Shown here piece by piece: positions 13,306-44,206 of a DNA stretch of 58,304 nt (positions are counted from its first letter, which is position 1; each line of letters begins with the position of its first letter). Both the position numbers and the translations under genes were made by a program. The DNA lies in the NCBI GenBank assembly GCA_021463145.1, contig JAJTWZ010000023.1:1-58304 (forward strand), read 5' to 3'. The notes beneath the pieces are model-generated. The model saw nothing but the letters and a program-made list of their open reading frames with translations, made no database searches and was not told the DNA's origin. Source of the stretch: Blastocatellia bacterium. GTDB lineage: Bacteria > Acidobacteriota > Blastocatellia > UBA7656 > JADIYM01.

Positions 13306-13857
13306 CTACGGCCGGAACTCGGACAGCAGGAAGTCCGTCCCTGCACTGTGGCAGTCGGCGCACAGCCCTATGCCGCGACCGTAGAAGTCGGCCTGCGTTC
13401 CGTTGAACGACTCCATGAACAGCCAGCCCTGCCCGCTGGCGCCGGCCTTCTTCTTCACCTTCACCATGACGGCATAGCCTCGCACAGTGTCGGTCGATCC
13501 GAAGTACAGCTCTTTCACCATTGCCGCGCCCTTCCGGAACGACGTCCGGCCGGCGCGCAGGTCTTCGGCAAGAATCGTGTTGAAGAACGTCCGGACGTTC
13601 CCGCCGTGCGGCCCGCTCGACGGATGCACGGCGGGCTCGGCAACGTACCCTTCGAGATAGCGCTTCTCCTGAAGCCACGCGAGCATCGCCTTGCGCTTCG
13701 TAGGCGGAATGTTCGCGTCGCCGCCGAACAACAGCGCGTCGCTCGCGACACAGCCTTCGTCCGAACCGGCCCGCACCGTGGCTTCCGGCGCGACCGGCGC
13801 CATCCAGGCTGCAAGGCCCAGCACGAACGCCGCAACGGCTCCCAATCGTCTTCGCAT
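13306..13857 (-). CDS. cytochrome P460-like monoheme protein
   Basis: 183 residues with an N-terminal signal peptide (about 1-30). The C-terminal GIGLCADCHSAG carries a c-type heme motif CxxCH (Cys166, Cys169, His170), placed near the end as in cytochrome P460-family proteins. The preceding beta-rich region with VRTFFNT and GYAVMVKV fits the P460 fold. Periplasmic redox protein; true P460 enzymes oxidise hydroxylamine, but the crosslinked lysine needed for that cannot be verified here, and many members have other or unknown roles. ATG 13857 is preceded by GGGAG at a suitable distance. It stands alone, convergent with the aminopeptidase gene. Confidence 0.82.
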   Translation of the reverse strand: MRRRLGAVAAFVLGLAAWMAPVAPEATVRAGSDEGCVASDALLFGGDANIPPTKRKAMLAWLQEKRYLEGYVAEPAVHPSSGPHGGNVRTFFNTILAEDLRAGRTSFRKGAAMVKELYFGSTDTVRGYAVMVKVKKKAGASGQGWLFMESFNGTQADFYGRGIGLCADCHSAGTDFLLSEFRP

Positions 13858-13941
13858 GTCCTGGTCTCCCCCTGACCTCGTCGACTTGCTGCCTTCGAGA
13901 ATGCACCGACCTGGGCAATCTATTCCACCACCAATGGACGA

Positions 13942-39095: not shown

Positions 39096-39998
39096 ATGCA
39101 CGGCGTGCGCGCCATCGTCACCGTTCCGCCATACGCGACTTTCATCGACGACGTCGCGCGGCATCCGGTCGTTGGCGGACTGCGGCTCAACACTGTGATG
39201 CCGGTCAAAGGGCCGCTCGACGCTGTGCTCGAGCGGCTCGCAGCGCACGGTCAGCCGCTCTGGGTCGACCTGAAAGGACGGCAGCTGCGCGTCGTGGATG
39301 CCGCCGTTCCTCCGTTCACGTCCGTGCGGCTGAGTCATCGCATCGATGTGACGACTCCGGCGGATGCCTTTTTCTCGGATGGACGCGAGTACGCGCGCAT
39401 CGTCGAGATCGACGGCGACCGGCTGATCCTCGACGAGAGTCCCCGCCGCGTGGTGGGACCGGGCGAGTCCGTGAACATAGTCGCGGACGACCTGCGGATC
39501 GAGGGCACTCTCACCGATACCGATCGCTCGTATCTGGACGCAATGAGTCGCGCCGGCCTTCGCGACGTGATGCTCTCGTTCGTCGAGTCGCCAGGCGACG
39601 TCGCGGAGGTGCGCGAGATCCTTCCCGACGCCAACGTCGTGCTGAAAATCGAAAGCCGGCCCGGTCTCGGATACGTCGCCCGGCACGGCGCCACCCACGG
39701 ACGGCTCATGGCTGCGCGCGGCGACCTGTACGTCGAGGTCGTACAGCCGCACCGGATAATCGCCGCGATGCGCGAGATAGTCCGGGCCGATCCGGACGCA
39801 ATCGTCGCAAGCCGAATCCTCTCTTCCCTGGCTGTCGACCCGGTGCCGCTTGCGTCTGACATCGGCGACGTTGCGTTCTGTCTCGAGATCGGATATCGGA
39901 CGTTCCTGTTCGGCGACGAAGTATGCCAGCGGCGCGACACCATTCTTCCCGCGCTGAATCTGTTCTCGGAGATAGCGCAAGCGAGTTCACTGCCATGA
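39096..39998 (+). CDS. pyruvate-kinase-like protein without C-domain
   Basis: 300 residues, clearly related to pyruvate kinase but shorter (PykF 470). The alpha/beta-barrel is complete: GVRAIVTVPPYATFID and GLRLNTV (Arg30, Asn32), LWVDLKGRQLR, the shortened B-domain, LTDTDRSYLDAMSRAGLRDV, the metal-site LKIES (Lys184, Glu186) and MAARGD (Asp210), then DVAFCLEIGYRTFLFGDEV. The Lys-Asp spacing of 26 equals that in PykF (220 to 246). Changes: RLNFSHG is RLNTVMP, DTKGPEIR is DLKGRQLR and the ITATQ Thr-region is VASRI. The allosteric C-domain is absent. It lies 2 bp after the vWA gene and overlaps the amidohydrolase start by 4 bp. It may act on another substrate. Confidence 0.85.
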   Translation: MHGVRAIVTVPPYATFIDDVARHPVVGGLRLNTVMPVKGPLDAVLERLAAHGQPLWVDLKGRQLRVVDAAVPPFTSVRLSHRIDVTTPADAFFSDGREYARIVEIDGDRLILDESPRRVVGPGESVNIVADDLRIEGTLTDTDRSYLDAMSRAGLRDVMLSFVESPGDVAEVREILPDANVVLKIESRPGLGYVARHGATHGRLMAARGDLYVEVVQPHRIIAAMREIVRADPDAIVASRILSSLAVDPVPLASDIGDVAFCLEIGYRTFLFGDEVCQRRDTILPALNLFSEIAQASSLP

Positions 39999-40942
39999 AA
40001 CAGACCACCTACGGCGAAATCGAGGTGTGCGACGCTCACGTTCATTTCTTTTCGCACCATTTCTTCGAGAAGCTGGCGGGCCTGGCGCCGTCCACTCGCG
40101 GCACACCCGATCCCGTCGAGGCCGCGTGCCAGGTAACGGGCTTCGACCCGCCCGGAACCGACCCGGCGTTCCTCGCCGACCGCTGGCTGGCCGAACTCGA
40201 TCTCGCCGGGGTTTCGCGGGCGATGCTCATCGCCAGCGTTCCGGGCGACGAGGCGTCGGTCGCCGCTGCTGTCTGGCGGCATCCGGACCGTTTCGTCGGC
40301 GCGTTCATGGTCGACCCGACGCACGACGACACCGAAGCTCGGGTGCGCAGAGCATTCGACGAACTGGGGCTTGGCGTCGCCTGCCTCTTTCCGTCGATGC
40401 ATCACTTCAGCATCGCGGAGTCGGACGGCGTCCGCGCCGTTGCGGCGCTAGCCGCGGAGCGGCCCGGTCGCGCCGTCTTCACTCATTTCGGGGCCCTGTC
40501 GGTTGGAATCCGCAGCAAGCTCGGATTGCCGAGCCCGTTCGACATGCGGCGTTCGAACCCGTTCGATCTCCATCCAGTTGCCGGCGAGTTCGCGTCGACG
40601 ACCTTCATCGTTCCGCACTTCGGCGCGGGCATGTTTCGCGAAACTCTCATGGTCGCGGAGTTGTGCCCGAACGTCATGATCGACACTTCGTCGAGCAACA
40701 GGTGGATGCGCTACGTTTCGCCACCGGCCGATCTGGCCAGTGTCTTCCGTCAGACCATAGCGGTGGCCGGCGCGTCGCGACTGTTGTTCGGGAGCGATTC
40801 GTCGTTTTTCCCGCGCGGGTGGAACGGCACGGTCTTCGACGCACAGATCGAAGCGCTCGCCGACGCCGGCGCATCGGCGGACGACGCCCGCGCCGTCCTC
40901 GGCGGCAACTTCGGGCGTCTGTTTGGAGAACAGGAGAGCTGA
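39995..40942 (+). CDS. amidohydrolase family 2 protein
   Basis: 315 residues. Amidohydro_2 (ACMSD/TIM-barrel) hydrolase or decarboxylase: the metal motif DAHVH (His15, His17), further His164 in FTHFGAL and His208 in IVPHFGAG, and Asp268 in LLFGSDSSFF, all as in the family. It lacks the Lys carboxylation region of some relatives; one divalent metal is expected. Substrates of this family are small carboxylated or aromatic compounds; I cannot tell which. The ATG overlaps the stop of the pyruvate-kinase-like gene by four bases (ATGA), so it belongs to the same operon. The stop lies within the left arm of the family B repeat. Confidence 0.88.
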   Translation: MKQTTYGEIEVCDAHVHFFSHHFFEKLAGLAPSTRGTPDPVEAACQVTGFDPPGTDPAFLADRWLAELDLAGVSRAMLIASVPGDEASVAAAVWRHPDRFVGAFMVDPTHDDTEARVRRAFDELGLGVACLFPSMHHFSIAESDGVRAVAALAAERPGRAVFTHFGALSVGIRSKLGLPSPFDMRRSNPFDLHPVAGEFASTTFIVPHFGAGMFRETLMVAELCPNVMIDTSSSNRWMRYVSPPADLASVFRQTIAVAGASRLLFGSDSSFFPRGWNGTVFDAQIEALADAGASADDARAVLGGNFGRLFGEQES

Positions 40943-41043: not shown

Positions 41044-42702
41044 CTACTCTTCCAGCATGGGTATGTTCATACCCTTCTCGCGGGCCGTGTCCTTCGCTTC
41101 GTCGTAGCCGGCATCCACGTGCCGGGCGACACCCAGGCCTGGGTCGTTCGTCAGCACGCGATTGAGCCGCGTCGCGGCCTCCGGCGTGCCGTCCGCGACC
41201 GAAACCTGGCCGGCGTGCAGGCTGTAGCCCATTCCAACCCCGCCGCCGTGATGGAAGCTTACCCAGGAAGCGCCGGACGCCGTGTTCAGAAGCGCGTTCA
41301 AGATCGGCCAATCGGCGACCGCGTCGGTACCGTCTCGCATTGCCTCCGTTTCGCGATACGGCGAAGCCACCGATCCCGTGTCGAGATGGTCGCGGCCTAT
41401 CACGATCGGCGCTTCGATCTTCCCTCGTTTGACGAGGTCGTTTATCGCTTCGCCCATAATCGCGCGGTCGCCGTAGCCCAGCCAGCAGATGCGCGCCGGC
41501 AGTCCCTGGAACTGCACCCTCTCGCGCGCGACGCGAAGCCATCGCTCGAGCGTGCGGTCGTGTGGGAACAGCTCGAGCGCAAGATCGTCCGTCGCCGCGA
41601 TGTCCGCCCTGTTGCCCGAAAGCGCAGCCCACCGGAACGGCCCACGACCCTCGCAGAACAGCGGACGAATGTACTCCGGAACGAACCCGGGCACGTCGAA
41701 GGCATTCTCCACGCCGGCTTTCTTCGCGTGCCCGCGGATGTTGTTGCCGTAGTCGAACGTGACGCTTCCCATCTTCTGCAGGTCGAGCACTGCCTGCATG
41801 TGCACGGCCATCGTCTCGAACGCGCGCCTCTGGTAGCCGTCTGGATCGTCCTGCCGCAACCGGATCGCATCCGCGAAGTCCAACCCGCTCGGCACGTAAC
41901 CGTAGAGCGTGTCGTGCGCCGACGTCTGATCGGTAAGGACATCGGGAACTTCTCCACGACGGACAAGCTCCGGCAGCACGTCGGCGCAGTTTCCGACGAG
42001 ACCGATCGAAAGCGGCTCGCGTCGCTTCTGCGCATCTCTTGCGATTCGCAGCGCCTCATCCAGATCGAAGCTGATCCGGTCGCAGTACCCCGTCTCTATT
42101 CGCTTCTCGATTCTGGATGCGTCCACGTCGATGCCGAGAAAAACCGCCCCGCACATCGCGGCCGCGAGCGGCTGCGCGCCACCCATTCCGCCCATACCGC
42201 CCGAGACGACGAGCCTGCCGGTCAGATCGCCGCCGAAGTGACGGTCGGCCGCGGCCGCAAATGTCTCGAACGTGCCCTGCACGATGCCCTGCGAACCGAT
42301 GTAGATCCAGCTGCCGGCCGTCATCTGACCGTACATCATCAGTCCGGCGCGCTCGAGCCGGTCGAACTCGTCCCAGTTCGCCCAGTTGCCGACGAGGTTC
42401 GAATTCGCGATCAGCACCCGCGGCGCATAGTCGTGCGTGCGGAAGATCGCCACCGGTTTGCCGGACTGAACGAGCAGCGTCTCGTCGTTCTCCAGCTCGC
42501 GCAGGCTGCGCACGATGGCGTCGAAACACTTCCAGTTGCGCGCGGCGCGGCCGCGGCCGCCATAGACAACCAGGTCCTCGGGCCGTTCGGCGACCTCCGG
42601 ATCCAGGTTGTTCATGAGCATCCGCAGCGCGGCTTCCTGATGCCAACCCTTGCAGCTCAACTCCGTGCCGCGTGGCGCGCGCAGTACCCTCGATTCCGTC
42701 AT
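41044..42702 (-). CDS. hutU: urocanate hydratase
   Basis: Second enzyme of histidine degradation: converts urocanate to imidazolone propionate using tightly bound NAD. The 552-residue product has the family features: [20 protein letters not shown] near the start, [34 protein letters not shown], the NAD site [14 protein letters not shown] and catalytic region [24 protein letters not shown] and [12 protein letters not shown]. Length is normal. The start ATG at 42702 has AGGA upstream; the frame further up lies in the preceding gene's terminal region. It follows hutH by 16 bp in the same operon. Confidence 0.97.
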
Positions 42703-42718
42703 CCGATCCTCCAGTCCA

Positions 42719-44206
42719 TCATTCCTGCCCCAGTCCGGCCACCAGCGGCGCGAGCACGGCAATCTTGTCGGCCAGCACTTCGTCGTGCTCGAAGAATGGC
42801 ACGGCCTCGCGCAGCCGCGAGTGAGCTCGCGCGATGCGCGGCGCCGGCGCGAGCGGTGCGAGGAAATCGATTCCCTGAGCCGCGCAAAGCGCTTCGATTG
42901 CCAGCACGGACCGCACGTTCTCGACGCATGTCGCCAGCTTCAGCGCGCTCGTCATACCCATCGAGACGTGATCTTCCTTGTTCGCCGACGTCGGAAGGCT
43001 GTCGACCGACGCCGGATGCGCGAGCACCTTGTTCTCGGCAAGCAGTGCCACTGCCGCAACCTGGGCGATCATCATCCCCGAGTTCGTACCGGCATCGCGT
43101 ATGAGGAAGGCCGGCAGTCCGGACAGATCCGGGTTCACGAGCCTCTCGATGCGGCGTTCGGAGATCGACGCCAGCTCGGTTACGGCAATCGCAAGGTAGT
43201 CGAGAACGAGCGCGACGGGCTCGCCGTGGAAGTTACCTCCCGAGATCACTTCTCCGGTGTCCGGAAAGACGAGAGGATTGTCGGTCGCGCTGTTGAACTC
43301 GGTCTCGAGCACCCGCCTCGCATGGCCGGCGGCGTCGCGAACGGCGCCGTGGACCTGCGGCATGCAACGCAGGCTGTAGGCGTCCTGCACGCGACCGCAG
43401 TCGGCGTGCGACTGGCGGATCTCGCTGCCGTCCAGAAGTTCGCGAAGGTTCCGGGCGACGGTCACCTGTCCGCCGTGTGCCCGTGCAGCGTGAATGCGCT
43501 CGTCGAAGGCGACCGGCGTGCCCTGCAACGCCTCGAGCGACATCGCGCCGATCACGTCGGCGGCGTCCGAGAGCGCCTCGATGTCGAGCAGCGCGATTGC
43601 CCCGATCGCGCTCATCGCCTGCGTGCCGTTGAGCAGTGCCAGTCCTTCTTTCGCCTCGAGCTCGAGCGGTGCGATGCCGGCTGCCTCGAACGCCTGGCGA
43701 GCCGGGACTCTACGGCCCCCGTGGACAACCATTCCTTCGCCAATCGCGCCGAGTGCGAGATGGGCGAGCGGCGCAAGATCGCCACTGGCTCCGACCGAGC
43801 CCTTCGACGGTACGACCGGGAGCAGGTCGTTGTTGATCATCTCGACCAACGTCTCCAGAACTACCGGCCGTACGCCCGAGAACCCCTTTGCAAGCACGTT
43901 TGCCCGCAGCAGCAGCATCGCGCGCGTCGCTTCGGGGCCGAGCGGCTCGCCAACTCCGCAGGAGTGCGACCGCACGAGGTTGATCTGGAGCGCCCGAAGA
44001 TCTTCCTGCCGGATACGCACGTCGCTCAGCTTTCCGAATCCGGTATTGATGCCGTAGACCGCGGCATCGCCGGTCAGGATTCGTTCGACCACGGCGCGCG
44101 ACAGAGCCACGCGGTCGATAACGCCATCGCCAATTCCGGCGCGCTCGCCACGGGCGACCGCGCCGACGTCCTCGAGAGTCAGGGAATGACCGTCAATTGT
44201 GATCAA
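42719..44206 (-). CDS. hutH: histidine ammonia-lyase
   Basis: First enzyme of histidine degradation: histidine to urocanate and ammonia. The 495-residue product carries the electrophilic MIO prosthetic group made from Ala140-Ser141-Gly142 in [14 protein letters not shown], the active Tyr51 in [10 protein letters not shown], and the [26 protein letters not shown] segment. The start is a TTG ([10 protein letters not shown]) with no clear ribosome site; no better start is nearby. It sits between the thiolase and hutU on the same strand. HutI (imidazolonepropionase) and the formimino-glutamate steps are not in the window, so they must be elsewhere. Confidence 0.97.

Follow-up and report, generated by a model that had tools for sequence, protein, structure and literature searches.

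The window, a stretch of 58,304 nucleotides, carries a tight run of four genes encoding a NadM-like nucleotidyltransferase, a vWA-domain protein, a pyruvate kinase (PK)-like protein and an amidohydrolase (Table 1). The PK-like gene, third in the run, starts 2 bp past the vWA stop codon and has a ribosome-binding-like sequence, CTGGAG, upstream of it.

Table 1. Features of the PK-like locus, with residue counts across the PK-like family
Feature	Position	Strand	Remarks
NMN-adenylyltransferase (NadM)-like nucleotidyltransferase, 191 aa	37378..37953	+	PF01467 above cut-off; first gene of the module
vWA-domain protein, 325 aa	38116..39093	+	AlphaFold2 model and motif; PHROG 2971
PK-like barrel protein, 300 aa	39096..39998	+	family n=24
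R30-L-N32, PEP-phosphate arginine and asparagine of PK	39183..39191	+	R and N in 24/24
D58-LKGRQL-R65 signature	39267..39290	+	Q63 in 24/24; R62 is R in 23/24, K in 1/24
K184-I-E186, catalytic lysine and first metal ligand of PK	39645..39653	+	K and E in 24/24
D210, second metal ligand of PK	39723..39725	+	D in 24/24
S239-R240, at PK T328-Q329	39810..39815	+	S 23, T 1; R 22, K 1, D 1 (n=24)
Amidohydro_2 protein	39995..40942	+	PF04909, E 1.6e-28; ATG overlaps the PK-like stop (ATGA)

Among Pfam models, the PK-like protein matched PF00224 alone at E-values up to 0.1 (residues 92-261; 45.2 bits, cut-off 30; E 8.8e-12), with no match to an HpcH/HpaI-CitE model. Its AlphaFold2 model is of high confidence (mean pLDDT 93.4, pTM 0.91), and PKs fill the fold list, occupying all of the first 50 rows of a Foldseek search. 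VIA-align superposed the model on human erythrocyte PK (2vgf; Z 28.1, 2.8 Å, 283 residues) and on an oxalate complex (5ws8; Z 27.7, 2.7 Å, 290 residues). On this predicted structure, the protein is a whole PK A-domain (beta/alpha)8 barrel with an inserted, shortened B-domain. The C-terminal allosteric domain is absent, the chain stopping after the barrel in both the sequence and the model. The initial annotation had read a PK A-barrel along the 300 residues, a lysine-to-aspartate spacing of 26 (K184 to D210), a short B-domain and no C-domain, and each of these readings holds, the spacing exactly. It had also treated the missing C-domain as a mark of the protein, but this absence is not unique: the PK model NF005234 (PRK06739) has 352 positions and, judged by that length, lacks the domain too. 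NF005234 differs in matching the PK-like protein weakly (15.8 bits, cut-off 564), and a vWA context is not evidenced for it. A chance ORF is ruled out by the PF00224 match above cut-off, the high-confidence model and the 24 homologues.

The protein is not a canonical PK. TIGR01064 scores 55.3 bits on the whole protein and does not reach its cut-off of 306.4, the other NCBIfam PK models that match are all far under their cut-offs, and a full canonical pyk lies apart from the PK-like gene on contig 46 of the same genome. The PK-like gene is thus neither the sole PK of its genome nor the housekeeping one. PK matches outside the PK-like locus were also found in the genomes of loci L003-L006, where that of G423 is in pieces in one open frame. 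The initial annotation had reasoned that homologues which are degenerate PKs beside a full pyk would count against a new function; a PK elsewhere in the genome is indeed found in these cases, but degeneracy does not follow from that alone.

We analyzed a family of 24 distinct members, of which 20 are bacterial and 4 are from phages; they come from MAGs, genomes of the window's own phylum and viral contigs, and their identity to the window protein is as low as 30%. Judging by record titles, the majority of the loci apparently derive from metagenome bins; L003 and L004 are titled Deltaproteobacteria/Myxococcota, L005 Anaerolineales and L006 uncultured. A whole-genome survey of the window's own phylum gave matches at E below 1e-40 in 3/396 genomes, and the best match among the other 184 matching genomes (1e-5 or better) was 2.8e-12, which is where canonical PKs score. 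Matches clearly set apart from ordinary PKs occurred in 4/58 genomes of the relatives surveyed and in 1/201, 7/198 and 7/282 genomes of the phyla of L005, L006 and L004, respectively. Viral scans recovered L070, L071, L072 and L078, L071 being the same phage as LR745208 (L067), and the phage contigs with a PK-like gene are 124-485 kb long. No viral match was returned when the window protein or the L056 protein served as lone query; in another search, 8/9 phage records matched by the window protein resemble ordinary-PK fragments by score and coverage, and a plasmid search returned a single weak partial match. The distribution is patchy, as for a mobile gene. In a tree with four canonical PKs (PK_L001, PK_L059, PK_L010 and PK_L012, used for the alignment as well), all 24 members are split from the canonical enzymes by one branch with support of 100/100. 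Phage members fall at two places in the tree, with L072 on a long branch.

The alignment of the 24 members contains 26 invariant positions out of 300, among them T9, R30, N32, D58, K60, Q63, L64, R65, K184, E186 and D210. Aligned with the canonical PKs, R30, N32, D58, R65, K184, E186 and D210 correspond to rabbit PK R73, N75, D113, R120, K270, E272 and D296, which include the PEP-phosphate arginine, the metal acids and the catalytic lysine. Loss of all metal and phosphate ligands in close relatives, which the initial annotation had named as grounds for abandoning its reading, is contradicted by this invariance (24/24). The family therefore resembles PK (PykF/PykA, PF00224, TIGR01064) in its A-barrel, R-x-N, D58, R65, K184, E186, D210, ARGD region and remnant B-domain, whereas it lacks the C-domain, the SHG and the B-domain ADP lysine, has a shorter B-domain, carries SR for TQ and R-Q for P-E, and occurs in a vWA/NAD context.

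The window protein reads GLRLNTVMP, DLKGRQLR, K184-x-E186, ARGD (including D210) and IVASRIL at the corresponding motifs. The RxNFSHG and (I)TATQM signatures of PK are absent, R and N being retained while SHG and TQ are replaced. Aligned with the canonical enzymes, the K+ ligand S77 of PK becomes V, G, A, L or I; H78, the ADP-side histidine, is replaced in 24/24 members, mostly by M; P116 becomes R, or K in one (R62 of the window protein); and E/K117 becomes Q in all (Q63). The ADP/ATP-side lysine of the B-domain (K207 region) is E in 18, Q in 5 and D in 1 of the 24, at a place where the alignment is loop-dependent. Individual members depart further: 6/24 carry D or Q in place of the ARGD glycine, L078 has ALGD for ARGD, and L072 has ATD where others have ASR. 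The altered signatures quoted by the initial annotation are all present, but DLxG is not unusual by itself, as the canonical PK of the same genome reads DLCGPKIR; by alignment, the distinctive changes there are those from P to R62 and from E/K to Q63. Compared residue by residue, the family retains the acid/phosphate/metal half of the PK site and has lost the ADP/K+ half, with invariant Q63 and near-invariant R62 and R240 as a new conserved set.

A site of this kind could belong to a reduced PK that still makes ATP from PEP and feeds NadM and NadE, both of which consume ATP, the changes reflecting lost allostery and lost K+ dependence. In K+-independent PKs, Lys117 replaces the K+ charge, and R62 (from P) or Q63 could stand in for that charge here; the entire catalytic core is retained, and NF005234 provides a precedent for a PK without a C-domain. 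We nevertheless consider a reduced PK unlikely, given a score far under the PK equivalog cut-off (55 vs 306 bits), the replacement of both the ADP-side histidine and the B-domain lysine in every member, and the presence of canonical pyk in the window's genome and of further PK matches in the L003-L006 genomes (split in G423). A reaction other than that of glycolytic PK, as the initial annotation proposed, is likely for a distinct and conserved PK-fold family with a kept catalytic core and a conserved gene context.

That context begins with the vWA gene, a homolog of which lies directly upstream of the PK-like gene on the same strand in 24/24 loci (cut by the contig end in L103). Besides D176 and a MIDAS-type DVTGS motif (D72, T74, S76), the window vWA protein has a zinc-ribbon-like CPSC/CGYC pair in its C-terminal part, and the columns of D72, T74, S76 and D176 are invariant in an alignment of 17 rows. 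Its AlphaFold2 model matches I/vWA domains (Z 14.6, 2.8 Å, 170 residues), and the protein matches PHROG 2971, a group of unknown function, at E 3.5e-18. The Pfam vWA model gave zero matches to it; a profile built from the vWA alignment gave none among solved structures, so the assignment rests on model and motif. vWA domains usually bind proteins, and the strictness of the pairing would also suit a catalytically silent PK-like sensor or scaffold that signals the level of PEP or of a nucleotide to the vWA protein and a kinase. Silent homologues, however, normally lose some of the catalytic lysine and metal acids, and here the lysine and both metal acids are strictly retained down to 30% identity; we regard a silent role as quite improbable.

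A protein combining DnaJ and protein kinase domains is encoded directly upstream of the vWA gene in 8/24 loci (L055-L058 and the 4 phage loci), and the window has none. The DnaJ domain is fused to a Ser/Thr protein kinase in L055-L058, L067 (9937-10971), L070, L072 and L078, with the DnaJ match of the L056 kinase under its cut-off. Other protein kinases occur near the PK-like genes of L089, L090, L092 and, by BLAST only, L104. The closest precedent is reportedly a 2012 paper on Ter. TerY-P triads, in the accessible part of their description, consist of a vWA protein, a kinase and a PP2C phosphatase (PMC11090510). They share the vWA protein and Ser/Thr kinase with the loci described here, and L070 also has a phosphatase nearby. 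They differ in that the kinase here is DnaJ-fused, PP2C was not seen among the proteins scanned with Pfam (part of the ORFs), and the constant partner is the PK-like protein with NAD enzymes. No PK-like partner was seen in the accessible part of the TerY-P description (PMC11090510) or of a text on vWA conflict systems, in which the word 'pyruvate' is absent (PMC7159879). The L070 phosphatase is of the dual-specificity type and is encoded directly downstream of the phage PK-like gene (L070:9142-9567); in L067, an ORF with no Pfam match in a comparable position (13465-13941) carries a CLGGVARS motif.

NAD-type genes also recur around the PK-like gene. In 14/24 loci (the window and 13 others) the vWA gene has a NadM-like gene upstream of it, a NadE-NadD fusion is found near the PK-like gene in 3/24 (L056-L058), and overall an NMN-adenylyltransferase-like gene or domain is nearby in 17/24 loci and NadE, fusions counted, in 12/24. 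As a description of the whole family, the initial annotation's operon with unrelated genes is therefore incorrect, since protein kinase, PurA-like, NAD synthetase and NMN-adenylyltransferase-like genes are recurrent. In the window, no NadE adjoins the PK-like gene and the NadE of the genome is on another contig. The window NadM-like protein has HLGH and GTMVR motifs and matches NF002243 (92 bits) and TIGR01527 (82.5 bits), both under their cut-offs. Phage L078 encodes a NAD-synthase domain about 5 kb downstream of its PK-like gene, and 3/4 phage loci have no NAD gene within the stretch examined. The NadM-like genes of L104-L106 lie some 3 kb from the vWA gene, separated from it by a large, conserved ORF whose product, about 1,010-1,050 aa long, begins like a lipoprotein (L104:9150-12182, L105:8682-11792, L106:8977-12120).

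A NAD_synthase search of nine genomes found five with a module NadE, and four of these five (G420, G421, G339, G419) have a second strong NadE. TIGR00482 identified a NadD outside the module over its cut-off in 7/9 genomes and under it in G421 and G422. These further copies rule out the module NadE/NadD as the lone housekeeping copy, with G418 (83% complete) having a module NadE and no second strong NadE seen. The NadE-NadD fusions are about 816-855 aa long (L056:1119-3578, L057, L058, L094:6007-8574), and G349, the genome of L055, has such a fusion on another contig, 48% identical to that of L056. All 12 NadE sequences checked (4 fusions, including the unlinked L094, and 8 NadE encoded separately; L105 was left out) preserve both the glutaminase CED and the PP-loop SGGxDS. 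The HxGH motif of the nucleotidyltransferases is less well kept: its first His is missing in 4/4 fusions, and it is imperfect in 6/13 NadM-like homologues checked (L003, L004, L006, L088, L090 and L092, with the forms HRGQ, HLGQ, HRVH, HCIH and HLAH). The NadM-like and fusion proteins thus need not all make NAD, and the imperfect motifs are suggestive of modified substrates rather than plain NAD synthesis.

A PurA-like gene is present downstream of the PK-like gene in 5/24 loci (L055, L057, L058, L072, L093). In 8/8 PurA-like sequences, a (W/F/H)Q(G/Q/S)-type motif stands where PurA has the aspartate loop TTGRxRR, and GD(E/A)GKG and the active-site histidine are retained. E. coli PurA holds aspartate through R303 and R305, within the lost loop, and these arginines are thus missing from the PurA-like proteins, which, going by this motif, probably couple a different amine, not aspartate. 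A search of solved structures with the L058 PurA-like protein, run at too strict a limit, gave zero matches. PurA-like genes beside a vWA gene were seen in both bacteria and phages (L055:5219-6712, reverse strand; L057; L058; L072; L093; L073:8302-9630; L074; L075), and those of mycobacteriophages are annotated as 2-aminooxy adenylosuccinate synthetase or PurA-like.

Loss of the aspartate-loop arginines in these partners implies the involvement of an unusual acid or amine, and the PK-like protein could then be a C-C or C-O lyase or a decarboxylase of an oxaloacetate-type acid, supplying or removing a 2-oxo acid for PurA-like- or NadE-linked chemistry. Such reactions occur as a side activity of PK or in other PEP/pyruvate barrels; a lysine, a Glu/Asp metal pair and a Ser/Thr proton relay would be enough for them, and the nucleotide side of the PK site is lost. 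We find a lyase improbable, however, because R30 and R65, which bind phosphate in PK, are invariant and fit a phosphorylated substrate better, and because so few of the loci (5/24) have a PurA-like gene.

From the fold, the invariant core, the altered ADP/K+ side and the gene context we infer, at about an even chance, that the PK-like protein is an active, Mg-dependent enzyme of a vWA-centered, often kinase-linked NAD/nucleotide module, whose substrate is PEP-like or a 2-oxo acid and whose phosphoryl partner has changed. It would bind a phosphoenolpyruvate-like or 2-oxo/2-hydroxy acid in the manner of PK, with phosphate and carboxylate held by R30/N32 and the ARGD/S239 region, the metal (Mg2+) held by E186/D210, and K184 available for phosphoryl or enolate chemistry. 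The second substrate would be something other than ADP held in the usual way, since the K+ site has been substituted, as have the B-domain lysine and the histidine on the ADP side, and R62, Q63 and R240 are newly conserved. The PEP-type acid or its phosphoryl group may be moved to or from a nucleotide-type partner in a NAD/nucleotide side branch, the partner being made or used by the module's NadM, NadD or NadE (and PurA-like) proteins; control would come from contacts with the vWA protein and, in loci that have one, with the protein kinase. The other enzymes of the module, a NadM-like or NadD-like protein, NadE and the altered PurA, may make or modify NAD-type and purine nucleotides.

PK is treated as a single-reaction family. 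If the proposed role is true, a separate PK branch that keeps the acid/phosphate/metal half of the site, drops the ADP half and is accompanied by vWA, kinase and NAD/purine enzymes in huge phages and in bacteria of different phyla would put the fold to a new use and open the way to a nucleotide pathway not known before. It would also bring phage vWA and PurA-like genes, at present annotated as purine enzymes or as hypothetical, together in one testable system. A wider reading, which we put forward tentatively and hold to be on the unlikely side, is that bacteria and huge phages share a module making a modified NAD- or purine-type nucleotide, in which the PK-fold enzyme would transfer a PEP-derived phosphoryl or enolpyruvyl group to or from a nucleotide supplied by the nucleotidyltransferase and NadE of the module, the altered PurA would, in some versions, couple another amine, and the DnaJ-kinase and vWA proteins would exert control.

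Related sets without the PK-like gene are found in phages: a kinase-vWA-PurA-like trio in mycobacteriophage QBert (gp253-255), a vWA-PurA pair in Vibrio phage Va1, and phosphoribosyltransferase-like, NMN adenylyltransferase, vWA and PurA genes in Rhizobium phage RHph_TM61. All three have the homologous vWA and PurA-like genes, as judged by BLAST for QBert and Va1 and also by alignment, and QBert has the homologous kinase as well, but the PK-like gene between vWA and PurA is missing. According to the accessible part of its description, phage NAD+ salvage employs NadV, NadM and NadR, so NMN adenylyltransferase-type genes are common to both; there, no PK-like component was seen, and adenylosuccinate, NadE and DnaJ are absent from the text (PMC9503650). 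We found no description of a vWA/PK-like/NAD gene set in the open-licence literature and provisionally regard the vWA/PK-like module as novel.

These phage relatives bear on a further possibility at the level of the system, namely a NAD-replenishing or defense/counter-defense kit in which the PK-like protein is one of several repair enzymes. The occurrence on phage contigs of 124-485 kb, the patchiness in bacteria, the additional NadE/NadD/NadM copies and the related vWA-PurA genes beside NMN adenylyltransferase in the Rhizobium phage are all consistent with such a kit. Against it, PADLOC gave zero matches for the PK-like, vWA, NadM-like, PurA-like and NadE proteins and matched the kinase domain to general kinase models only, and no defense-island neighbors were seen in the window, leaving the kit doubtful.

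By its position, the window amidohydrolase is co-transcribed with the PK-like gene, yet it falls outside the conserved module. The initial annotation had envisaged a conserved trio of vWA, PK-like and amidohydrolase genes; the vWA part stands, but no homologue of the amidohydrolase was found at E 1e-5 in any of the 23 other loci (0/23), and a partner that adjoins the PK-like gene in the window only is ruled out as a conserved one. Farther along the window, on the reverse strand (41044-44206), are urocanate-hydratase-like and histidine-ammonia-lyase-like ORFs, recognized by eye as an ordinary histidine-use pair.
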